A stretch of 48,415 bases of DNA from a virus. Made by a program: the position numbers and the translations under genes. This document shows positions 489 to 45,118 of the stretch, piece after piece (positions within the stretch are counted from its first letter, which is position 1; each line of letters starts with the position of its first letter). The stretch covers positions 1 to 48,415 of IMG/VR virus record IMGVR_UViG_3300017779_005865; one strand, 5' to 3'. The notes beneath the pieces were generated by a model. The model saw only the letters and a list, made by a program, of their open reading frames with translations, searched no databases and was not told where the DNA came from.

Positions 489-878
489 TTACCCCTTAAA
501 TATTTGCTTTTTACCTCCGAAGTATTCATATGCATGACCTTCGATCTTTAATTGTTCATTTATATTGTATTGTTTTCCTTTTTCATCTTGTATAAAGATT
601 TCTCCTAATACTCTTCCATATTTTCCAACGCCATGACTTTTTAATCTAAAATAACCAGGCTTTGAAGATGTTTCTTGTAGTAGCTCGATTACTCTTGCTT
701 TTGCAGCAAGTCCTTTTTTCTTTTCTTCTAAATCTCTAGTTCTAGATTCCCATGCGTCAACTCCCATAAAACGGATTCTTTTCTTAACCCATATATCGAA
801 ACCGACATCGATAAGAGCGTCAACAGTATCACCATCAACTACTCTTTCTAATTTTGCTCTGTAAATATACTTTTCCAT
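489..878 (-). CDS. Thermonuclease-like (SNase) nuclease
   Basis: A 129-residue staphylococcal-nuclease fold protein, close to the size of the catalytic domain. The calcium and catalytic residues are visible: VDGDT (D15, D17, T18), R36 in RIRFMGVDAWESR with D41 and E44, and R89 in YGRVLG. These match Arg35, Asp40, Glu43 and Arg87 of the S. aureus enzyme. It would cut DNA or RNA to 3'-phosphate ends. The ATG at 878 shares its A with the TAA of the upstream tagged gene (TAATG). It lacks both a secretion signal and the N-terminal tag of its neighbours. It may act on host DNA, or be part of the virion. Confidence 0.85.
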   Translation of the reverse strand: MEKYIYRAKLERVVDGDTVDALIDVGFDIWVKKRIRFMGVDAWESRTRDLEEKKKGLAAKARVIELLQETSSKPGYFRLKSHGVGKYGRVLGEIFIQDEKGKQYNINEQLKIEGHAYEYFGGKKQIFKG

Positions 879-1306
879 TATTTTTTCATTCCAGGCATCC
901 AACCAAAAGCGTCCATTGCATATGCCATTGCAGCGTCTGGTCTTTTTTCTTTTAGTTTTTTTATTAAAGCAATAATACCTTTTCTATTAAAATATTTTTC
1001 AGGCATAACGTCCAATGCATTCTTAAATTTATTTGAAACATCTTTATACTGATTAGCTTCATTAACTGTTTCATACATTAAATCAAACATTAAATTTTGA
1101 GTTTTTGAAGATGTAGCTCCATGCTTTTCTACTGCTCTTCTAGCTTTCATTGCATTTTTCTTAAGTACTAAATGGTATCCTTTTCTAGGCCCACCCATTT
1201 TCTTAACATATTGTGCACCTTGTATTTTCATGCCAACAGGTTTTGCATTACCTTTTGGGTCTATTACTACAAATTCTCTTTCAGTTAATATATTTTTTAA
1301 GTTCAT
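878..1306 (-). CDS. Tagged putative capsid-cargo protein, unknown function
   Basis: A 142-residue basic protein starting MNLKNILTE-REF, one of the seven shared N-terminal tags in this region. A GGGAGAG ribosome-binding site precedes the ATG by six bases. After the tag comes a short beta-like segment (FVVIDPKGNAKPVG), then mostly helical Lys-rich sequence with MKARRAVEKHG and a C-terminal AYAMDAFGWMPGMKK. I see no catalytic motif. The T4 precedent (internal proteins whose N-terminus is cut by gp21 after L/I-x-x-E) suggests packaging inside the capsid. That role is inference. Confidence 0.75.
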   Translation of the reverse strand: MNLKNILTEREFVVIDPKGNAKPVGMKIQGAQYVKKMGGPRKGYHLVLKKNAMKARRAVEKHGATSSKTQNLMFDLMYETVNEANQYKDVSNKFKNALDVMPEKYFNRKGIIALIKKLKEKRPDAAMAYAMDAFGWMPGMKK

Positions 1307-1352
1307 TTTATTCTCTCCCTATACTATAAATATCAAATTTATCGTATAAATA

Positions 1353-1880
1353 CTATTTGGCTTTAACTAATTTAGTAACCAGTTTCACTTCTGGATACTT
1401 CTTTTTTAATTTATTTACTGCATCTATATTTTTCTTGCTATCATCCATAAAATATATTGGACTATAGCCTTTCTTTATTTCTGCTTCGATATAATCTGCC
1501 TTTTTCTGAGGATCTGCATCACCAAGAGGTATTATGTATGGTCGTATGCCTATCGTTTTAAAAAAATGATTTATCGGTGCACCAAGTCTTCTGGCAGTCA
1601 ATATAGTCACTTTTCGGCCACCTTTACTTAGTTGTTTGCGTAACAAATCAACATTTCTTTTTATCAATTTTGGATTTCTAAGTTTTCTATCAAAGTCTCT
1701 AAAATCAAAAGTTTCACCTTTTTTTGGAGTATAAACTGCAAATTCAGCTGCGTCAAGTTGCATTTCTGTACCGTCTGGTCTTTTTACATAAACCCAGGAG
1801 TCAGAGGTAACTAGAGTATCGTCAAAATCAAATATACTCAACATTCCTCTTTCTAGTAATAGGTCTTTTAATTTAATCAT
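1353..1880 (-). CDS. Tagged HAD-superfamily phosphatase
   Basis: A 175-residue protein starting MIKLKDLLLE-RG, a capsid-type tag fused directly to a HAD domain. Motif I is DFDDT (nucleophile D18, acid D20), motif II is TILTAR near residue 100, a Lys-rich stretch (QKKAD) supplies motif III, and motif IV is FMDDSKKN near 152. It probably hydrolyses a phosphate, perhaps on a polynucleotide end like Pnkp phosphatase; the substrate cannot be read. I start it at 1880, not 1904, because the tag begins there and the ATG sits at the end of the upstream gene. The cap region is small. Confidence 0.85.
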   Translation of the reverse strand: MIKLKDLLLERGMLSIFDFDDTLVTSDSWVYVKRPDGTEMQLDAAEFAVYTPKKGETFDFRDFDRKLRNPKLIKRNVDLLRKQLSKGGRKVTILTARRLGAPINHFFKTIGIRPYIIPLGDADPQKKADYIEAEIKKGYSPIYFMDDSKKNIDAVNKLKKKYPEVKLVTKLVKAK

Positions 1881-2155
1881 GATACATCCATTGAGTCGTC
1901 CCAAGTTAATTTAATTCCTTGTTTTTTTAATTGTTTAGCAGCTTTTTCTAATTGTCTTTCTTCCATACTTCTTAAACCAATATTCCAACCTAATAATTTA
2001 GATAATGATTCTTCTGCATTTCTCCAGCTATCCCATCCTTTAACCCTTTTTTTACCATCAACTACTGTTCTGTAAAATCTTCCTCTGCTTTCTTCAAACC
2101 ATATATCTATATTTTTTATTTTGCCTTCGTTTAATATGTTTGTCAGTTTAATCAT
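1877..2155 (-). CDS. Tagged small putative cargo protein
   Basis: A 92-residue protein starting MIKLTNILNE-GK. The ATG at 2155 is preceded by GGAG at a normal distance (GGAGATAAAA-ATG), which decides it over the ATG at 2167. After the tag it reads as a compact alpha/beta domain (NIDIWFEESRGRFYRTVVDGKKRVKGWDSW), followed by a charged helix (MEERQLEKAAKQLKKQG). I recognise no enzyme motif. Its stop overlaps the start of the HAD gene by four bases. Function unknown; co-packaging with its neighbours is inferred from the tag. Confidence 0.7.
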   Translation of the reverse strand: MIKLTNILNEGKIKNIDIWFEESRGRFYRTVVDGKKRVKGWDSWRNAEESLSKLLGWNIGLRSMEERQLEKAAKQLKKQGIKLTWDDSMDVS

Positions 2156-2157
2156 TT

Positions 2158-2394
2158 TTATCTCCATGGCAACATTGTCATGCCTATTTTATTTAATATG
2201 AATTCCATTATAATTACAAATGATATTCCACCTACTATTTGCCAAGTCCAAAACTTCCATCCTGTTAATCCTTCTTGCCATTTACGAAATCTACTTTTTT
2301 TAGCCCATTCATATAATCCTAGTTTAGTGTTTATTTTGTCTGCCCACCAACTCATGTCGACTATATTTCCTAACATTTTATAGAATTTAATCAT
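2158..2394 (-). CDS. Small single-span membrane protein
   Basis: A 78-residue protein starting MIKFYKMLGNIVDMSWW. The C-terminal third is a transmembrane helix (WQIVGGISFVIIMEFIL) after an aromatic, positively charged segment (RFRKWQEGLTGWKFWTW). The start resembles the neighbouring tags (M-I-K-F-x-K-M-L) but has no Glu at the expected cleavage position, so I do not count it as tagged. The ATG at 2394 overlaps the end of the upstream tagged gene by eight bases; the alternative start at 2463 would overlap that gene by 77 bases. Function unknown; an inner-membrane role during entry or lysis is possible. Confidence 0.65.
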   Translation of the reverse strand: MIKFYKMLGNIVDMSWWADKINTKLGLYEWAKKSRFRKWQEGLTGWKFWTWQIVGGISFVIIMEFILNKIGMTMLPWR

Positions 2395-2683
2395 TCCAAC
2401 GATCTCCAAATATAGCTTTACCTGTTTTCTCGTATTCAGTCCATTCGGTATAAAACTTACCATTGATAAACCTATCAGCTTCTCTTCTCATTCCTTTTAC
2501 ATGATTTGAAAAGATATCATTGTTCTGCTTGCCCTTATTTTTTGCATCTAATTTTTCTAAAGCCTTTACTGCCTTGTCTAATGCGACTAGTGCCTTCATA
2601 CTTTTTTCAGCAGTCTTTCTCATTGTGATGCCATCTTTGACTATCCAATTCTTAACTTCTTTTAACATGTTCTTTAATTTCAT
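2387..2683 (-). CDS. Tagged helical putative cargo protein
   Basis: A 98-residue protein starting MKLKNMLKE-VK. The ATG at 2683 has GGAGG eight bases upstream and overlaps the zinc-peptidase stop by ATGA, which rules out the start at 2698. The body is almost entirely helical and charged, with an Ala/Leu/Lys heptad-like stretch (MKALVALDKAVKALEKLDAK) that could form a coiled coil, and ends in GDRWND. No enzyme motif is visible. Small, highly charged and helical matches the style of T4 internal proteins. Function unknown. Confidence 0.7.
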   Translation of the reverse strand: MKLKNMLKEVKNWIVKDGITMRKTAEKSMKALVALDKAVKALEKLDAKNKGKQNNDIFSNHVKGMRREADRFINGKFYTEWTEYEKTGKAIFGDRWND

Positions 2684-3078
2684 ACGTACTTCCTCCAATT
2701 CTTTTCTGCTTTATGGGCTGCTTTTTCATATGGATTATTTGCGTATCCTTTTTCTCGATATATTTCAAACTTTTTTCGGTCCTGTGTAGCATGAGTATAT
2801 TCATGAAGTAAGGCTTTAATTATTTCCTCTTCATTAACCATCCTAGGTGTATACAAATATATTTTATTTTTATCCCAATCATATTCAGCATGTGGATTTG
2901 CCTCTCCTGTCATTTGCTGATCTCCGCTAAGTCTAGCATAAATATTTGTATGGAATTCAACCTTTGGTGTACCTCTTTTAGCTCTGCCTAAGTTTTTGGC
3001 TATCAATGGATATACTCTATCAACAACAGATTGCTTATTGAACCGCTCTAATAATATGTTTTTTAGTTTTATTCCCAT
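2680..3078 (-). CDS. Tagged HExxH zinc metallopeptidase-like protein
   Basis: A 132-residue protein starting MGIKLKNILLE-RF. It has a zincin motif LLHEYTHATQ (H92, E93, H96), and a plausible third zinc ligand E118 in NPYEKAAH, which follows the arrangement of minimal gluzincins. The core before it (NKIYLYTPRMVNEEEIIKALL) is the expected strand-helix. It probably cuts protein; the target is unknown. A peptidase carrying a capsid-entry tag suggests delivery into the host at infection, though a role in virion maturation is also possible. The start overlaps the zinc-ribbon gene stop by ten bases, and no strong ribosome-binding site is visible. Confidence 0.8.
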   Translation of the reverse strand: MGIKLKNILLERFNKQSVVDRVYPLIAKNLGRAKRGTPKVEFHTNIYARLSGDQQMTGEANPHAEYDWDKNKIYLYTPRMVNEEEIIKALLHEYTHATQDRKKFEIYREKGYANNPYEKAAHKAEKNWRKYV

Positions 3079-3257
3079 TTCCTATTATATTTTTCTCTTT
3101 GGTCGACCATTACATATTCTACAGCGTCATGTTCACCACAATGAGGGCATCTTAACTTTTCTATGTGGGCAGCCTCATTAATTTTCCATTCGCCTTTGCA
3201 CTTTTTATTACTACATTTATAGATATACGTGTGGCGTATGAAAACCTTATGACCCAT
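3069..3257 (-). CDS. Zinc-ribbon protein
   Basis: A 62-residue protein with two Cys pairs, CSNKKC near residue 15 and CPHC near residue 37, which would form one zinc ribbon. The rest is basic and aromatic. It overlaps both neighbours (11 bases with the phosphatase, 10 with the peptidase), so it belongs to the same transcript. It carries no tag. Small zinc ribbons in phages often bind RNA polymerase or nucleic acid, but nothing here shows which. Confidence 0.7.
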   Translation of the reverse strand: MGHKVFIRHTYIYKCSNKKCKGEWKINEAAHIEKLRCPHCGEHDAVEYVMVDQREKYNRKWE

Positions 3258-4080
3258 TACTTTTGCCTGTATCTTTAATTATTCTATATTTTAAAAGCGG
3301 TCGACCATTTATAGTTATATCGCCTTTTTCATTTCTTCCTATATCTTTTACAACTATTCTCTTATTTTTAAATTTTCCACCAAGAATAGTATCTCCTACT
3401 TCTATTGGAATAGTTATTGCCTCTGATAGCTTATCCATTTTTAATTCTGCTGTATTTGTTATGTGTTTAAATAGAGCTAATCCTACATTTAATCCAAACT
3501 TAGAATCACTAGGAAAGTGTACTTTTGCAATTAAACGGCTATTAGATATATCATCAGCTAACTTCATTATTTCTGTTGAATATTTTGGGTAAACTGTTGC
3601 AAGATATTTTCCAATTAATATTCCTTGTGCAGAATGGCCCGACGGATATGACGGAGTCTTTGAAGATGCTAATGGTTGTTCGTGGAATTTTAATCCAAGA
3701 GCATCTGCCACTTGAATTGGTCTTGGCCTGTTATAATGATACTTGATTTTGTATAATATTGGACGACTGTCATGCAATAAGGTAGATACCTCTTCGTTTG
3801 GAAATCGCAAACCTTTTGTTGCTAAAAAATCTTTAAAATATGTTTTTATGTTATCTGCCCTTTTAGCAAAAGGATTGTCATCTGGAATCTGTTCTATTGA
3901 TAGCATTTCACGAAGTGTTTCATCACTATCGTTACTTGGTGGAGGCGTAGATAAAAATTGATTGGTTTGGAAATCATTAAATATACCAAGATCTTTCCTA
4001 TCCATGTGTTTTTGGTGTTTTGGATTTACTTCTTCAGAATATTTTAATTCTTCTACGTATAGCTTATCAAATAGTTTCAT
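3247..4080 (-). CDS. PAP2-family phosphatase with divergent capsid-type tag
   Basis: A 277-residue protein with the complete PAP2 signature: K111-x6-R118-P119, PSGH at 146-149, and SR at 181-182 with H188 and D192. H149 and H188 are the expected catalytic pair. There are no clear membrane helices, so it resembles soluble acid phosphatases rather than lipid phosphatases. The N-terminus MKLFDKLYVE-EL keeps the M-K-L and L-x-x-E of the neighbouring tags. The last 55 residues form a separate beta-rich module (VGDTILGGKFKNKRIVVKDIG ... ING-P), of a kind I recall at the ends of marine phage virion proteins. Substrate unknown. Confidence 0.85.
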   Translation of the reverse strand: MKLFDKLYVEELKYSEEVNPKHQKHMDRKDLGIFNDFQTNQFLSTPPPSNDSDETLREMLSIEQIPDDNPFAKRADNIKTYFKDFLATKGLRFPNEEVSTLLHDSRPILYKIKYHYNRPRPIQVADALGLKFHEQPLASSKTPSYPSGHSAQGILIGKYLATVYPKYSTEIMKLADDISNSRLIAKVHFPSDSKFGLNVGLALFKHITNTAELKMDKLSEAITIPIEVGDTILGGKFKNKRIVVKDIGRNEKGDITINGRPLLKYRIIKDTGKSNGS

Positions 4081-4084
4081 GATC

Positions 4085-4594
4085 TTATTTTTTTAACATA
4101 TTTTTAACTGCGTCTGGTCCAGACCACATTCTACATGACCAATAGCCTGCAGAGGTTTTATCTTTCTTTTGATCACACTTATGTCTTGCCCTAAATGATG
4201 CTCTAGCTTTTGGATCTTTTGTTTTAATACTTAATCCGCTAGTATCTCCAAATGAAACCTTTTTAATATTTCCTGTTTTTGGATTTTTAGCATAGACATA
4301 AAATTTCTTATCACCTCCACGTTTTACCTTACCTAATTCTACTTTTTTACCATTATATTCGGCTTCAGTTATAGTTTTAGAGTATTCTGATAACCATTCA
4401 AAAAAACATGCCTGGTCTTGTTCTCTAACTATTATTTCTTCTATTCCTTCTCCTCTATTTAATTTTTCACCTGCCTTTTTTGCAGCCTTATAAGATTTTG
4501 ATCTAGGATCTGACTTTTCGCCGCGTTTCTTTTTTGCACGTATATTTGCCCAAAGGCCTTTGTTTTTTTCTGATAGTATATCTTTAAGTTTCAT
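4085..4594 (-). CDS. Tagged basic protein with marine-phage Cys module
   Basis: A 169-residue, very basic protein starting MKLKDILSE-KN. After the tag comes GLWANIRAKKKRGEKSDPRSKSYKAA, a short basic segment, then a module of about 95 residues: GKKVELGKVKRGGDKKFYVY..NPKTGNIKKVSFG..., ending RARHKCDQKKDKTSAGYWSCRMW. I recognise this module as widespread in marine T4-like phage proteins, function unknown. The two Cys (KCD, SCR) are its conserved ones. One base separates it from the upstream gene. It is probably virion-associated and DNA-binding by charge (inference). Confidence 0.75.
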   Translation of the reverse strand: MKLKDILSEKNKGLWANIRAKKKRGEKSDPRSKSYKAAKKAGEKLNRGEGIEEIIVREQDQACFFEWLSEYSKTITEAEYNGKKVELGKVKRGGDKKFYVYAKNPKTGNIKKVSFGDTSGLSIKTKDPKARASFRARHKCDQKKDKTSAGYWSCRMWSGPDAVKNMLKK

Positions 4595-7582: not shown

Positions 7583-8499
7583 ATTCTTAAATCCTTTTTA
7601 TATTTCTTAATCCAAGTCGGTAAATCTCCTTTAGGTTCCCAATCAAGCATTAAAGAAGCCTTTGAATTATCTGCTAATGTTTGAAATGGTTCCTTTACCT
7701 CTTTACCATAGGTTTTTTTACCTCCAAGCATATCTGCAACTTCATTCACAGAATAATTTTTTCCGTTACCGATGTTAAATACATCTCCGTTAAATCTTCC
7801 TTCTTTTGTTGCTACTAAAATATTAGCATCAACTGCATCTCCTACATAAGTAAAATCTCTTCTTTGGTTTCCATCGTTGGTTATTGTTAAATCTTTTTCT
7901 TCTAACATCTGTTTAGCAAATATACCTAAAACTAGACAATAAGCTCCTTCAAGATTCATTCTTTCACCGTAAATATTAAAATATCTAAGAGATACTGTAT
8001 CTAAACCGTATACTTCTGAAAACATTTTACAGTACTGTTCACCAATATATTTCTGTAAACCATATGGGGATAGTGGATTTGTTGAATGCTCTTCTGGAGT
8101 TGGAAACTTTGTTGCATTTCCATAGGCAGAGCTACTGGCGCTGTAAACAACTCTTTTTACTTTTGCATTATGAGAAGCTAAAAGAATATTTAGTGTTCCT
8201 TCAACATTTATTTTATTAAATGAAACTGGATCAACTATTGATGGTTGAACTCTAGCTTTTGCAGCCAAATGAAAGACTACATCTATTCCTTCAAATAACC
8301 TCCAAACATTTCTTCTAGGATTTTCTAAGTCTGTCATTGTAGAAATATCAACTCTATATAGCTTTGCGTTAGCATTTACATTTTCTTTTTTACCAGTAGA
8401 TAAATCGTCTAATATAATTACTCCCCACCCTTTTTCAAGTAGTTTATCAACTAAATTTGAACCAATAAAACCTGCTCCACCTGTTACTATTGCTCTCAT
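7579..8499 (-). CDS. NAD-dependent sugar-nucleotide epimerase/dehydratase
   Basis: A 306-residue extended short-chain dehydrogenase of the GalE/WbpP type. Features are TGGAGFIGSNLV at the start (NAD binding), the SASSSAYG strand, and the catalytic YGLQK (Tyr-x3-Lys) near residue 150. The C-terminal part (GNGKNYSVNEVADML) is the usual substrate-binding end. It probably inverts C4 of a UDP-hexose or uronate. It is coupled to the dehydrogenase next door, and to the small gene upstream by TAATG, which suggests a dehydrogenase-epimerase pair giving a galacturonate-type sugar. Confidence 0.9.
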   Translation of the reverse strand: MRAIVTGGAGFIGSNLVDKLLEKGWGVIILDDLSTGKKENVNANAKLYRVDISTMTDLENPRRNVWRLFEGIDVVFHLAAKARVQPSIVDPVSFNKINVEGTLNILLASHNAKVKRVVYSASSSAYGNATKFPTPEEHSTNPLSPYGLQKYIGEQYCKMFSEVYGLDTVSLRYFNIYGERMNLEGAYCLVLGIFAKQMLEEKDLTITNDGNQRRDFTYVGDAVDANILVATKEGRFNGDVFNIGNGKNYSVNEVADMLGGKKTYGKEVKEPFQTLADNSKASLMLDWEPKGDLPTWIKKYKKDLRI

Positions 8500-8678
8500 T
8501 ATTTATCCGTTTTTTCCCAATCCGTATCAATTTTTCTTAGTTCTTCAAAAACCATTTCAAACATTGGCTGAACGTATTTAAACTGGCCTTTTTCTTGTAG
8601 AATCTGTGCTACAGTTTCTAATGGTTTTTTAATTTTAATTTCTACTGATTTTTGTCCTTTTTTGTTAATTTTTGACAT
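8499..8678 (-). CDS. Small helical protein, unknown function
   Basis: A 59-residue frame starting MSKINKKGQKSVEIKIKKPL and ending EKTDK. An AGGAG ribosome-binding site lies at normal distance inside the end of the upstream glycosyltransferase, and the stop overlaps the epimerase start (TAATG). Both support a real gene. The sequence is one short strand and two helices (ETVAQILQEK, VQPMFEMVFEELRKI). Function unknown. Confidence 0.65.
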   Translation of the reverse strand: MSKINKKGQKSVEIKIKKPLETVAQILQEKGQFKYVQPMFEMVFEELRKIDTDWEKTDK

Positions 8679-39149: not shown

Positions 39150-40769
39150 TTACATCATTCCAAAGCCACCGCCAGCCATTGGAGGTTCTTTGCCTTCCTC
39201 TCCAGGAAGATTTGTTATTACACATTCAGTAGTTAATAGTGTTCCAGCAACAGAAGCTGCTTTTTCAAGGGCAGTTCTAGTTACCTTACAAGGGTCAATG
39301 ATTCCAGCTTCAAACATATTTACAACTTTCTCTGTTCTAGCGTCAAAACCTTGATTTTCTCCTGCATTTTCTATTTTACTCCATATTAATTCTGGATTAA
39401 GTCCACAATTTTCCATTATTCTTTGAAAAGGTGCGCTACACGCCTTAGCTACTATGTTTGCTCCGGTTTGTTGATGCTCATTATCAAAATTAGAATTTGG
39501 CTCATAGCATGACATTAGAGCTATACCACCACCAGAAACTATTCCTTCATCTAGAGCAGCTCTTGTTGCATTAAGGGCATCTTCAACTCTATCTTTCTTT
39601 TCTTTCATTTCTATTTCAGATTGAGCTCCAATTCTTAAAATTGCAACTCCACCAGCAAGCTTTGCTAATCTTTCTTGGTTTTGTTCTTTATCATAATTAG
39701 AAGATGAATTATCAATATCGTGTTTTATTAAATTTATTCTTTCTTCAATTGCCTCAACTGTTCCAGCTCCATCTACAATAGTTGTTTTCTTATTATCAAT
39801 AGTGATTGTTGCCGCGGTGCCGAAAACTTCCGGGGTAATTTTATCAAGTCTCATACCTCTTTGATAAGATACAACCGTACCACCTGTTAAAGCTGCAATG
39901 TCTTCTAAGTATTGATTTCTCTTTTCACCAAAGCCTGGTGCTTTTACAGCTGCAACCTTTAACGTGCCTCTAATTTTATTTACAATAAGTCCAGCTAAAG
40001 CTTCACCATCTATATCTTCAGCTACTATAAGTAATGGCTTATTTTGTTGTATCGCTGCCTCTAATACCTTTACAATATCTTTAATGGATGTAATTTTTTT
40101 ATCATATAATAAAATCCAAGGATTTTCTAATTCTACCCTCATATCAGTATTATTTGTAATAAAATATGGCGATAAGTATTTACTTTCAAACTGCATACCT
40201 TCAACCATTTCTAGTCTAGTATCTCCTGTTTGGGACTCTTCAACGGTAACAACTCCTTCTCTACCAACCTTTGAAATTGCCTCTGAAATTAAATTACCAA
40301 CCTCTGTATCATTATTTGCACTAACTGTTGCGACGTTTTTAATATCGTCCTCAGAACTAATTTCTTTACTACTGTTTTTTAAAGACTTTACAATATCCTT
40401 TACAGCTTTATCTATTCCTCGCTTTAGTTCTATGGGATGAGATCCTTGTTCAATTGCTGCAAAACTTTGATCGATTATAGATGCTGCTAGTACTGTTGCA
40501 GTGGTTGTTCCATCTCCTGCCTCATCATTTGTTTGTTGAGAAACTTCCTTTACAATTTGAGCACCTGCATTTTCTAGTGCGTCTTCAAGTTCAATTGATT
40601 TTGCAACAGTAACTCCGTCTTTTGTAGAGTGGTATTCTCCATATTCTTTCTCTATTACAACATTTCTACCTCTAGGTCCAAGTGTTGTTTCTACGGCTTT
40701 AGATAATTTATCTACACCATTTTTTAGCGATTTTCTAGCGCTTGAATCAAAAGTTAACTCTTTAGCCAT
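39150..40769 (-). CDS. groL: GroEL-type chaperonin
   Basis: A 539-residue group I chaperonin of full length. ATP-site motifs are present: TLGPRGRNVVIEK, DGVTVAKSIEL, NDEAGDGTTTATVLA (catalytic Asp region) and a late GGGIALM. The end PPMAGGGFGMM is the usual Gly/Met tail. No truncation is seen. It should assemble with the GroES encoded just upstream, perhaps for folding capsid proteins. The ribosome-binding site (AGAGGAG) lies in the GroES gene, which it overlaps by eight bases. Confidence 0.95.
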   Translation of the reverse strand: MAKELTFDSSARKSLKNGVDKLSKAVETTLGPRGRNVVIEKEYGEYHSTKDGVTVAKSIELEDALENAGAQIVKEVSQQTNDEAGDGTTTATVLAASIIDQSFAAIEQGSHPIELKRGIDKAVKDIVKSLKNSSKEISSEDDIKNVATVSANNDTEVGNLISEAISKVGREGVVTVEESQTGDTRLEMVEGMQFESKYLSPYFITNNTDMRVELENPWILLYDKKITSIKDIVKVLEAAIQQNKPLLIVAEDIDGEALAGLIVNKIRGTLKVAAVKAPGFGEKRNQYLEDIAALTGGTVVSYQRGMRLDKITPEVFGTAATITIDNKKTTIVDGAGTVEAIEERINLIKHDIDNSSSNYDKEQNQERLAKLAGGVAILRIGAQSEIEMKEKKDRVEDALNATRAALDEGIVSGGGIALMSCYEPNSNFDNEHQQTGANIVAKACSAPFQRIMENCGLNPELIWSKIENAGENQGFDARTEKVVNMFEAGIIDPCKVTRTALEKAASVAGTLLTTECVITNLPGEEGKEPPMAGGGFGMM

Positions 40770-41061
40770 TATTTTCTCCTCTTTTAATTATACAAAATAA
40801 ATCTATTTCACTGATTATTAAGATGTCACCTTCTTCCATTTCTACAGTATATGCTCCTCTTTTAGGATATGCTACAATATCTCCAACCTTTACCATTGGT
40901 TCTATTAGCGTTCCAAAATTATATGCTGCAGGGCCTACTGCCTTTACAACTCCTCTACTTATACCTTCTTGTGAAATATCTGGTAAGATAACTCCTCCAG
41001 AAGTCATTTCTTCCGGATCTAATTGTTTAATAGCCACTTTTCCTCTGATTGGTTCTACCAT
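40762..41061 (-). CDS. groS: GroES-type co-chaperonin
   Basis: A 99-residue co-chaperonin: IRGKVAIKQLDPEEMTSGGVILPD, a GroEL-contacting loop with the hydrophobic GVIL, then GRVxAVGPG-like RGVVKAVGPAAYNFG, VKVGDIVAYPKRGAYTVEMEEGDILIISEIDL. I start it at 41061 because GGAGG lies seven bases before that ATG; the ATG at 41091 has none. It is closer to bacterial GroES than to T4 gp31. It is translationally coupled to GroEL. Confidence 0.93.
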   Translation of the reverse strand: MVEPIRGKVAIKQLDPEEMTSGGVILPDISQEGISRGVVKAVGPAAYNFGTLIEPMVKVGDIVAYPKRGAYTVEMEEGDILIISEIDLFCIIKRGENNG

Positions 41062-41091
41062 ATCATAACCTCCATTATTGTTTTTATTCAT

Positions 41092-41130: not shown

Positions 41131-43587
41131 TTATATTGTTGCTTTTTCTTTTATTATTTCGTTATATTCTTCTAATATATTTTTAACATTATCTATTTTA
41201 TTAAATTCTTTAAGCTGGTCTAATACCTGTTTCTTAAAAAATATTTCATAGTCTAATTCAAATATATCTTTTCTTTTTCCTATTAAATCTAGGTCTTCTT
41301 CATTGAGACATATTGCCGTTTGCCTATCTCTGGGTTTAGTATCTTCTTCACAGTTACTTTTAATATAGAATAGGTATGGGTTATCAGTATTTTTAATTGT
41401 AGTTTCTAATCTATCATTTGCCCATACTGAAGCTTTTACATGTTGTGGCATTGTTTTTACATACTCGTTAAATCTTCTAGTAAATGATTTTGATATACCT
41501 ATTTCTTTATATCCAACAGATTCTACTTTTTTTCTTAATGCTAATAAGTGTCTAATATCTAAACCATCTCTAACTGCTAATTCTGCAATTTTATTCATTG
41601 CTCCTTTCATAAATTCTGGCGTATCTTTACGAATAATATTCATACCTCTAATATACTTGTATCCAGTATCTCTTACTATTCCATAATATCTTTTCTTTGA
41701 ATTACCAAAGTATATTTTTTCCATGTCATATTCAAATTTTAAATCCATTAGCATGTATTCGTCTTGAAGTTTAGGATTATATTTTTTAACATATTCTTCC
41801 TTTAATGCTTCATTAAATACTTCTAATTGACTTTCCATTTGTTTTGCAGTATTGCCAGCTGATTTTACAAATATTGAATCCGTATCTCCGTAAAGAGTTT
41901 TGTGTCCATATTCATTAAATTTTAATACTGCAAATTTAAGAGCCTGTCTTGCAAAATATGTAATAGCATCTGCTACTTCTGGCTTGTATAATCTAAACTG
42001 ATTAAAGCCCATAGCACCATAAGCAGAGTTTAATATAATTTTATAAGCCCATTGTCTTTTTTCCATTGCTACAACATCATCACCAGTGTATTCACCAGCC
42101 TTTAATGCTCTATTTATTTCAACCCTCTTTAAGAATAGCTTTTTTAATACATAAGGTAATAATCCTAATTTATGTTCTTGCGAATAGAATAAGTATCTAC
42201 CGCCAAAAAGAGTATCATCGTGGCCAGTATCGATAAATGGAATGTTATCATTATTTAATTGGTCAATTATTTCTTCAATGTTTATACCAAGCTTTTTACA
42301 ATCTTTTTCAGATGCTATAAATGTTTCTGGACTTAAATTAAATGCCATCATAGCTGTTGGATAAAGTGAAGTATAATCCATAACGGTTACGTCATCATGT
42401 TTACCTGGTTCAGTTGGATTAAAGACTATGGCACCTGCATATTGTTGTTTTCTTCCATGTCTTCTTGTTGGGAATATTAGTTTTTGGTGAAACTCTTTTA
42501 AAATATAGTTATCAACAATCATAGATTTATAAAAAACTAAACCTAAAGAATCTAAATTTGCAATACTTTGTATTGTTGTATATAGGCCAAAAATGTTTAT
42601 TTTATCATTTATTTCCTTAAGTATTTCAACATCACGTATACCATACTTTATAAATCCTTTATAATTAGTATTCCAATCTTTCCAAGTAACGTCTGTTAAT
42701 TTGTCTAACCCTTTTTCACCAACAATTTCTTTAACTGCTGTTGCTAGTTTATAGTTTGGTAGATTGTAACCCATATCTTGTACACCTTCCATCATATCAA
42801 TATGATCTAGTCCTTTGATATTTACTTTCCAATATTCTCCACGCTTTCTAATGTAGACATCCTTTATAGGAGATAAATTTTCATATGGTAAACCTAATAC
42901 CCTGCACCTATTTACTATATATGGAAGGTCATAACCTGCAGAATACCATCCAGAAATTACGTCTACTTTTAGCATATTTAATGTATTAATAAAACCTAAT
43001 ATTGCAGTTTCTTCTTTTTTGCAAAGCATAATTACGTGAGTTCCATCATCAACTATCTTAGGTTCATCGTAATCTTTTGTATATTCAGGATGCCAAGAAA
43101 ATACAAAGTACTTTCCAACTTGAGGAACGTAGCATTGTATTGAAGTAATAGGCTGTTTTGCTTTTTCAGGCATATTATCTTTTGGATTTTCAGGATCAAA
43201 CCAAGTTTCAATATCAAAATACATAATATTTCTTTTATCAGACCATTCCAATCCTTTATCTAATATAAAATTAAACTCTGGGCTTTTATCTGACTCGTAT
43301 ATTCTTCCTGGATAATCTTTTCCTACTTGATTTCTCATTTTTATAGAGGTATAACTAACTTTATATACCTCTTCTTCGTGTAAGGATTTGTATATAGTAG
43401 TATCACTACAATCAAATTGCTTGATGTCTAATATATCTTCAATGTGTTTTGCAGAATAATAAAAATAATCTTTAAAATTATCAACCTTAGTTGTAAAATT
43501 TCCGTTTTCGTCATAGCCAAATTGGTAAATTTTATAAATTCCTTTGTCAAATTTTGACGTTATTCTTGATAGTTTGAATGTGCTCAT
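41131..43587 (-). CDS. Family B DNA polymerase (T4 gp43-like)
   Basis: An 818-residue replicative polymerase. The 3'-5' exonuclease has motif I MYFDIETW (D125, E127), motif II WYSAGYD (D220) and motif III YGIRD (D319). The polymerase has motif A TVMDYTSLYP (D404), motif B KIILNSAYG (K516, N520) and motif C YGDTDS (D568, D570). All catalytic residues are present. It is somewhat shorter than T4 gp43 (898 residues). It likely replicates the phage genome. It has the same leader as the RecB-like gene. Confidence 0.95.
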   Translation of the reverse strand: MSTFKLSRITSKFDKGIYKIYQFGYDENGNFTTKVDNFKDYFYYSAKHIEDILDIKQFDCSDTTIYKSLHEEEVYKVSYTSIKMRNQVGKDYPGRIYESDKSPEFNFILDKGLEWSDKRNIMYFDIETWFDPENPKDNMPEKAKQPITSIQCYVPQVGKYFVFSWHPEYTKDYDEPKIVDDGTHVIMLCKKEETAILGFINTLNMLKVDVISGWYSAGYDLPYIVNRCRVLGLPYENLSPIKDVYIRKRGEYWKVNIKGLDHIDMMEGVQDMGYNLPNYKLATAVKEIVGEKGLDKLTDVTWKDWNTNYKGFIKYGIRDVEILKEINDKINIFGLYTTIQSIANLDSLGLVFYKSMIVDNYILKEFHQKLIFPTRRHGRKQQYAGAIVFNPTEPGKHDDVTVMDYTSLYPTAMMAFNLSPETFIASEKDCKKLGINIEEIIDQLNNDNIPFIDTGHDDTLFGGRYLFYSQEHKLGLLPYVLKKLFLKRVEINRALKAGEYTGDDVVAMEKRQWAYKIILNSAYGAMGFNQFRLYKPEVADAITYFARQALKFAVLKFNEYGHKTLYGDTDSIFVKSAGNTAKQMESQLEVFNEALKEEYVKKYNPKLQDEYMLMDLKFEYDMEKIYFGNSKKRYYGIVRDTGYKYIRGMNIIRKDTPEFMKGAMNKIAELAVRDGLDIRHLLALRKKVESVGYKEIGISKSFTRRFNEYVKTMPQHVKASVWANDRLETTIKNTDNPYLFYIKSNCEEDTKPRDRQTAICLNEEDLDLIGKRKDIFELDYEIFFKKQVLDQLKEFNKIDNVKNILEEYNEIIKEKATI

Positions 43588-43654: not shown

Positions 43655-45118
43655 TTAACAATTTAGATCGTAGTATTGTCCAGTTTTAATTAGCATGTTT
43701 GCTTTAACCATTTCTTGCATTATTGCCCAGCTCTCTTTCCAATTGCTGTCAAGTCTTAATCCGTGGCCACCTTCAGATATAATAACCTTTAACACTTGAT
43801 CGTGTCTTATAGAAGTATTACCTAATGAAGACATTATTCTTTTTATTAAATCTATATTTGGTTGGTTTAAGGTTATTTTTTTAGTTTTAGCAGTTTTTAT
43901 TTTTGAAACAATTATAGAAGATGGTTCTTCTTTAATCATTTTAACTTTACAAGTTTCTCCTACTAATACCTCTTCCATTTCTGTTTTTTCAAATAGTAGT
44001 TGAGGTTTTGCTTTTGGAGCAACTCTAGCAACTTTCCTCTTTTTTATTAAGTGAGGATTATTTTTAAGCCTGCAGTAAACAGAGTACTGGCAAAGACTTA
44101 CTTCAGTACCGTATGATTTTAATTCATTTTGCTCATCTTCAAATATTTTAATACCATTTTCTGTTGTATAGTTCCACAATTCTTTATGAAACTGTATATC
44201 TAAAATTTCTTTTTGGTTTTCTCGTATCCAAACAACTCTTTCGCCTAAAGGTACTTCTTTTTTAGATAAACCTGGAAACATTAATTCTAGAGTTTCACAT
44301 GCTCCTGGACCTGGAGCTACGAACTTTGAATCATGGCTAAAGTTTAATTTTGGATTAACAGAGTTTGATGTTGAGCAATGGTAACCGTAATAGTCTCCAA
44401 TCATATTTTCGCCTGTTAAGTATAAAAATCCTTCATAAAGGTCTTTTGCTTCTCTCATGCCTGTCATAACTGTTTTTTTAGGATTATGTCCAGAAGGTCT
44501 ATGTGTCCAAGATGCTATCCATTCTGAAACATTTGACCATGTTCCTTTGTCGTCGTGTCTAGCATTTCCTAGATACCATTCATTAACAAATCTTCTACCG
44601 GCAGTTTGTATGCTTGTATGAAGTTCAGTTGTACCCCATATTTTTTGTTTATTTTCTTTAGCTGCAACTGCAATTTTTCTAAGTTTTTTAGTGTATTCTC
44701 CTACCTCACCAGTTTCTTTAAACTGTTGTTGCTCTTTTCCTAGTAGAATAAAATCAATATGGGCTTTTTTATCATCATCAATGCCAGTTAAAACATTATG
44801 AACGCCTCTTGCTCCATAAAAGTGAGATATAATAGTGTTACCAATAACGTTTTGCCATTTTAGTCCTGGCACAGTAACAATATTTTCCATAATGTACACC
44901 ATTCTATCATCTGCAGTTATTGAAGGGTGAAAATATTCTACTTCTAATCCCAAAGCTGGGTCTGTTGGAGTGTATGACTCTAATATTCCTTTTTGAAATA
45001 GTGTTCGTTTATTAACCATCTTAACAAAATGCTCATAATCTTTTAGTACATCCCAATCAATAGAATTTCTGAGTGATTGGTCTTTTGTGCTTCCAGCTGG
45101 TATTAAAATATTAGGCAT
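43655..45118 (-). CDS. Possible thymine-hypermodification protein (HhH glycosylase-like)
   Basis: A 487-residue protein. The first 300 residues resemble the alpha-glutamyl/putrescinyl thymine pyrophosphorylase or 5-hmdU kinase group in phages: FHPSITADDRMVYIMENI, WQNVIGNTIISHFYGARG, GFLYLTGENMIGDYYGYHCSTSNS, then FVAPGPGACETLELMFPG (pattern G-x-G-P-G-A). The C-terminal 130 residues are Lys-rich, with a winged-helix-like end. If correct, the phage DNA carries modified thymine. The neighbouring HAD gene overlaps its start by eight bases. The call rests on motif layout only. Confidence 0.45.
   Translation of the reverse strand: MPNILIPAGSTKDQSLRNSIDWDVLKDYEHFVKMVNKRTLFQKGILESYTPTDPALGLEVEYFHPSITADDRMVYIMENIVTVPGLKWQNVIGNTIISHFYGARGVHNVLTGIDDDKKAHIDFILLGKEQQQFKETGEVGEYTKKLRKIAVAAKENKQKIWGTTELHTSIQTAGRRFVNEWYLGNARHDDKGTWSNVSEWIASWTHRPSGHNPKKTVMTGMREAKDLYEGFLYLTGENMIGDYYGYHCSTSNSVNPKLNFSHDSKFVAPGPGACETLELMFPGLSKKEVPLGERVVWIRENQKEILDIQFHKELWNYTTENGIKIFEDEQNELKSYGTEVSLCQYSVYCRLKNNPHLIKKRKVARVAPKAKPQLLFEKTEMEEVLVGETCKVKMIKEEPSSIIVSKIKTAKTKKITLNQPNIDLIKRIMSSLGNTSIRHDQVLKVIISEGGHGLRLDSNWKESWAIMQEMVKANMLIKTGQYYDLNC

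Follow-up and report, generated by a model that had tools for sequence, protein, structure and literature searches.

In bacteriophage T4, the N-terminal capsid-targeting sequence (CTS) of head-packaged proteins depends most on residues 4 and 7 for targeting and on residues 8 and 10 for processing, and the prohead protease gp21 cuts after L/I-X-E (PMC9026906). T4 gp24 also loses its first 10 residues (PMC9958956), and the SPN3US proteins gp53 and gp54 have identical N-termini (PMC5694885). Here we describe a short N-terminal sequence, with the consensus MIKLKDILxE and called the tag below, that begins seven of the nine minus-strand genes at positions 878-4594 of the IMG/VR virus record IMGVR_UViG_3300017779_005865. 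The entire record (48,415 bases; the window) was analysed, and nearly all of its genes lie on the minus strand. Judged from the sequences, the tag is very probably the CTS of a T4-superfamily phage, which would load cargo into the head and then be removed by a gp21-type protease; that the tagged proteins are also delivered into the host seems likely, with rather less assurance. A literature search on the tag strings found no paper describing the tag, and a search for CTSs in phages other than T4, P1 and the giant phages yielded no work on this clade.

Results

Six of the nine genes at 878-4594 have M-x(0,2)-[KN]-L-[KT]-[DN]-[ILM]-L-x-E at the N-terminus, a seventh, encoding a PAP2 protein, has a degenerate version, and the genes at 2158-2463 and 3069-3257 are untagged. 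A preliminary description of this DNA had reported seven adjacent proteins that start with a similar tag and then diverge; all seven N-termini are present, and by Pfam and PHROGs the bodies behind them are unrelated to one another. Gene starts were picked by a simple script, and three were shifted to inner ATGs (1880, 2155 and 2683), positions that the tag itself and short overlaps with the upstream genes support. By chance, 0.023 tagged genes per window would be expected from whole-protein shuffles and 0.037 from shuffles of residues 2-14; the maximum in 2000 shuffles was two matching genes, compared with five observed under the strictest regular expression or six when N was allowed for K. 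In the first loci fetched, the pattern stood at 94 of 3768 gene starts versus 20 of 13763 internal Met residues.

Related contigs were gathered by IMG/VR scans using three of the tagged proteins. We also scanned for a DNA pattern made of the codons for MIKLK[DN][ILF][LF]xE, with the same codons permuted as a control. The tag pattern was present in at least 120 IMG/VR stretches and the permuted control in 8, and among the IMG/VR matches listed, 124 of 132 were at the starts of open reading frames (ORFs). In bacterial and archaeal genomes (257 Gb), the corresponding scan found 60 stretches, in which 19 of 63 matches resembled ORF starts, and several matches sit in Flavobacteriaceae bins resembling phage contigs. 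The tag is virus-specific and placed at ORF starts. When 315 distinct tagged proteins were grouped by BLAST of their bodies, they formed 140 families, and 137 family representatives had nothing in common beyond MIKLKDILxE; this consensus arises partly by construction, because many loci were fetched via the tag, which does not apply to the absence of conservation after the tag or to the residue bias behind its Glu. Related contigs carry about four to nine strict tags each, on largely different proteins.

The regular expression leaves the residue after the Glu (P1') free, and this residue was A, G or S in 55 of the 140 families (39%), compared with 19.5% further downstream (p=8e-8). The residue two before the Glu (P3) was L or I in 129 of 140. 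The proposal that the tag ends close to the cleavage preference of gp21 is supported by this L/I-x-E motif, by P3 and by the P1' excess. It had also been claimed that the tag differs in sequence from that of T4, which is correct for the consensus and less so for its layout. T4 IPII and IPIII start with MKTYQEFIAEA, and MIKLKDILNE, with hydrophobic L4, I7 and L8 and a Glu at 10, has the same residue class as MKTYQEFIAE at positions 4, 7, 8 and 10. Nine-residue MKLKDILxE forms have identical spacing, shifted one residue earlier. The first 10 residues of T4 gp24, MAKINELLRE, are a close match to the tag. The tag and the T4 CTS thus have the same register and residue classes, and ten residues are too short to show descent.

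These data bear on an explanation in which the N-terminus is kept for translation or expression, through an AT-rich start or initiation-aiding codons in Bacteroidota-like hosts, and not for targeting. Start regions are indeed rich in A and T, and only 44 of 124 ORF-start matches have a clear Shine-Dalgarno site, as such an explanation would have it. Synonymous codons, however, differ among the tags (Leu TTA/CTA/CTT/CTG, Lys AAA/AAG, Asp GAT/GAC) while the residues are kept, so that selection acts on the peptide and not on the DNA. Conservation also stops at the Glu, with the next residue biased to A/G/S, most genes of tag-bearing genomes lack the tag, and the tag pattern is at least 15 times as frequent as the permuted codon order. 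Because the codons vary and P1' is biased, we rejected the translation signal, which we regard as very improbable.

A connection to head assembly comes from a head-core gene family, 'WFD', located downstream of a gp21-type protease. It is tagged in 18 of 22 copies (for example MKNLKELLNES in G003 and MIKLKDLLNEE in L296), and 16 of the 22 lie within 3 kb of the S77 protease gene. The major capsid proteins of relatives start with MNTNSLLNES, MSLHSILNES and MSNIGNLLNEA. Large relatives encode T4-type portal and capsid genes, and PF03420, the gp21-type protease, occurs in 12 of 24 related records, mostly large ones, including 9 of the 10 IMG/VR records longer than 150 kb. At the gp23 maturation site, T4 has FLTE|A, and the aligned residues of relatives are LVTE|A, LVSE|A, LIDE|N and IVSE|A; the cleavage preference of their prohead protease has therefore probably been kept as in T4. 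Since the partial 48-kb record has no head genes, the protease of this phage is itself deduced from relatives: the gp21-like protease that the preliminary description proposed to look for elsewhere in the genome is absent from the record and present, as an S77 protease, in half of the related ones.

The same results can be set against the idea that the tag has another destination (for example tail, host membrane or infection compartment) and resembles a CTS by convergence. A few tagged proteins match profiles of lysozyme, M23 peptidase or tape-measure type, and no T4 head markers were found in one tagged record of 207 kb, both of which fit such a destination. Nevertheless, a head-core gene next to the protease carries the tag, the major capsid proteins of relatives have similar N-termini, and the pattern at the Glu and P1' suits a prohead protease; we consider a non-head target very unlikely.

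The isolated Flavobacterium phage immuto, which has gp20, gp21 and gp23 and an annotated gp21-type protease, carries MIKLIDLLTES, MRLLELLREA and two further recurrent N-termini. In immuto (L436 22295-24355 and 33189-38932), MKKSQLRxIIKEEL starts about four genes, one of them between gp20 and gp21, and (F)DLKKFLVENKLTxNS starts four to five. These two are probably further tag families.

Pfam matches among tagged representatives cover Nudix, RimK, Fe/Mn superoxide dismutase, PAP2, zeta-toxin-like kinase and SprT-like peptidase, together with RNase T-type exonuclease, M23 peptidase, lysozymes, phosphoribosyltransferase and NT5C. A tagged Fe/Mn superoxide dismutase is encoded in three contigs (L088 10844-11512, L094 11334-12002 and L120 9100-9777), with tags that include MIRLKNILTEA and MMKLKSLLFEQ, and is a candidate phage-packaged antioxidant enzyme. 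Several tagged proteins with YHFT or YHYT motifs resemble ADP-ribosyltransferases, of which T4 Alt is one; the four YHFT proteins tested had no Pfam match, and one other tagged protein gave a weak ART-PolyVal match.

This range of cargo is relevant to a reading in which the tag would anchor proteins to the scaffold or core of the prohead for assembly, most of them being helpers of assembly or core parts that are degraded, and not delivered cargo. In its favour, the clearest head-linked tagged protein is the core gene beside the protease, and in T4 the core proteins gp22, gp67 and gp68 end as cleavage fragments and are not delivered (PMC9026906). Many tagged proteins, however, are enzymes without a part in assembly (Nudix, Fe/Mn superoxide dismutase, RimK, PAP2 and the zeta-like kinase), the tagged set varies among phages like the internal proteins of T4, and a clean domain begins directly behind the Glu. 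On this balance we regard the anchor as an improbable account of most tagged proteins.

In the window, where all genes described here are on the minus strand, the first tagged gene (878-1306; tag MNLKNILTE, 1280-1306) encodes a 142-aa protein to which neither its sequence nor Pfam assigned a function. The next (1353-1880; tag MIKLKDLLLE, 1851-1880) encodes a HAD-superfamily phosphatase of 175 aa, identified by Pfam (DUF2608, E=2.3e-6), PHROG (polynucleotide kinase, E=1.7e-7) and Foldseek, in which the best match of its model was the MDP-1 HAD phosphatase 1u7p (E=2.3e-4). Its domain begins 2-3 residues past the tag Glu, and in other phages the HAD domain follows other N-termini ending in L/I-x-E or similar (MKNFKNLIREFVRDVLSEG, MKLLLENWRRYLKEVE and SRLTEA). 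The genes at 1877-2155 (92 aa; tag MIKLTNILNE, 2126-2155) and 2387-2683 (98 aa; tag MKLKNMLKE, 2657-2683) could not be assigned a function from sequence or, for the latter, Pfam; in the relative G017 the corresponding tags are MIKLKDILSE (gene at 8304-8582) and MIKLKNMLNE (gene at 7990-8307). The gene at 2680-3078 (132 aa; tag MGIKLKNILLE, 3046-3078) encodes a probable HEYTH zincin metallopeptidase with weak Pfam matches to DUF3920 and SprT-like and an HExxH that is kept in relatives; a fold search of the PDB gave no significant match. In AlphaFold 2 models, the predicted local distance difference test score was below 50 for residues 1-9 only in the HAD protein and solely in segments 1-3 and 6-10 in the zincin-like protein, and both modelled proteins are thus predicted to be unordered over the tag only.

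The PAP2-superfamily phosphatase (3247-4080; 277 aa; Pfam PF01569, E=3.5e-11) has the degenerate tag MKLFDKLYVE (4051-4080), in which we found no convincing cleavage site; canonical tags stand on the PAP2 proteins of two close relatives, G014 (MGIKLKDILSE) and G018 (MIKLQNILFE). A small domain, EVGDTIL.GKFKNK..VVK, is C-terminal in the window PAP2 protein and N-terminal, after the tag, in that of G014 (L222 17716-18552), a placement that appears to be a domain permutation within tagged proteins. Of the enzymes named in the preliminary description, the HAD and PAP2 phosphatases were upheld by Pfam and the HExxH peptidase weakly so. The last gene (4085-4594; tag MKLKDILSE, 4568-4594) encodes a 169-aa protein with a phrog_7595-like C-terminal domain; PHROGs and homologs gave no assigned function, and it is homologous to HTVC008M gp131 and to an immuto protein. 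Its homolog in L117 shares the KNKGLWANIHAKKKRGEKS body and starts with another tag, MRITENQLRGLIRKKLQE. Homologous enzyme domains bearing different tags in different phages point to modular swapping.

A second module, (E)NMRRFGTKNLxE, again ending in L-x-E, follows the tag in several proteins (L300 185-544, L304 11071-11670, L314 10410-10799 and L301), and GELPSSKLMKMKWNP(L/V)TE and WDRxFGEPLPTL are other second modules common to several tagged proteins. These modules may be tandem propeptides.

Elsewhere in the window, the gene at 43655-45118 encodes a 5-hydroxymethyl-dU DNA kinase-like protein (HMUDK_hel, E=1.7e-9), which suggests that the phage DNA may be hypermodified; T4 IPI counters restriction in a setting of hypermodified phage DNA. 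A long block of sugar and glycosyl genes (7579-36000) includes glycosyltransferases, an epimerase, aminotransferases and NeuB-like synthases, identities mostly read from sequence, with one glycosyltransferase confirmed by Pfam; immuto has a similar block. A phage GroEL (Pfam Cpn60) and a GroES-like gene (39150-41091) lie beside a family B DNA polymerase gene (41131-43587), and GroES/GroEL is also found in immuto.

Discussion

The interpretation in the preliminary description stood in part. Its core, a CTS-like prohead tag with a gp21-type cleavage site, has good, indirect support from several independent features of the sequences: a tagged core gene next to the protease, the residue bias at P1', agreement with the T4 CTS positions, the tag swapping and the S77 protease of relatives. 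In the mechanism that we propose, the first ten or so residues would form a short amphipathic helix, hydrophobic at positions 4, 7 and 8, that would bind the prohead scaffold or core during head assembly, and this binding would load unrelated proteins into the prohead. Cleavage after the Glu of (L/I)-x-E by a gp21-type serine protease (Pfam Peptidase_S77) would then remove the tag and free the mature protein inside the head. On ejection, the cargo would leave the head together with the DNA and act early in the host.

Several observations weigh against this interpretation. Binding, cleavage, packaging and delivery in this clade are what we infer from sequence comparison, and the 48,415-base record itself contains neither head genes nor a prohead protease. 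A T4 head marker was found in 8 of 12 tag-pattern contigs of at least 70 kb versus 2 of 6 permuted-pattern control contigs, a contrast that runs in the expected direction and, with few contigs, is not significant. Headless contigs searched with a relative's capsid protein gave no match, in a search without a positive control. L454 (G026, 207 kb) has a tagged gene and no gp20, gp21 or gp23 match, and is either an incomplete record or a non-T4 user of the tag. The late-promoter motifs TATAAATA and TATTTATA showed no enrichment upstream of tagged genes, and a late-promoter link was rejected. P1' is K, R, V or I in several tagged proteins, unlike the Ala sites of T4, and most PAP2 homologs begin with MKLSDILSLK, without the Glu. 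HTVC008M, the isolated relative with the best DNA match, lacks the strict tag and was rejected as a tagged relative; its homologous cluster has looser tag forms, such as a kinase starting with MIPFILKEGLYDPG, which is MIKLKDILNEGVYDPG in relatives of the window.

To our knowledge, phage-injected proteins are known for a few model phages only. Should the tag be a mark of head cargo, what many uncultured T4-type phages inject would be readable from sequence, and the candidates already amount to at least 140 families, most without a known function and some with clear enzyme activities. The T4 CTS, with its handful of internal proteins, would then be one instance of a broad delivery system. The tag also offers a second, independent CTS for finding the prohead-core partner. 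More broadly, we lean toward the view that uncultured aquatic T4-superfamily phages use interchangeable labels (MIKLKDILxE, MKKSQLRxIIKEE, DLKKFLVENKLTxNS and MKLLLENWRKFIxE) to package a large, fast-exchanging enzyme arsenal that would enter the host with the DNA and include ADP-ribosyltransferase-like proteins, superoxide dismutase, Nudix hydrolases, kinases, phosphatases and peptidases.

The tag system most likely belongs with the CTS and prohead protease of T4, as a variant that handles a very wide range of cargo. Like the CTS of IPI, IPII, IPIII and Alt, which is cut by gp21, it consists of about ten N-terminal residues common to unrelated proteins, with hydrophobic residues at 4, 7 and 8, a Glu at 10, an L/I-x-E site and variable cargo, and tagged relatives have head genes of the gp20, gp21 and gp23 types. 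It differs in its consensus (MIKLKDILxE here, MKTYQEFIAE in T4), in reaching around eight copies in some genomes, in a far wider and mostly enzymatic cargo, in its presence on a head-core gene, and in its hosts, which are probably aquatic bacteria, perhaps Bacteroidota. The gp24 propeptide, removed by gp21 after residue 10, has nearly the residue pattern of the tag (compare the tag form MAIKLKDILLE), although gp24 is the vertex protein of the T4 shell and not cargo. Propeptides of the phiKZ/SPN3US type are also N-terminal, removed by a prohead protease, and borne by head and ejection proteins, on packaged and ejected proteins as here proposed; most of those in SPN3US, however, are longer (several above 100 residues), a diverged protease cuts them after A-x-E or S-x-E, and there is no short tag common to dozens of families.

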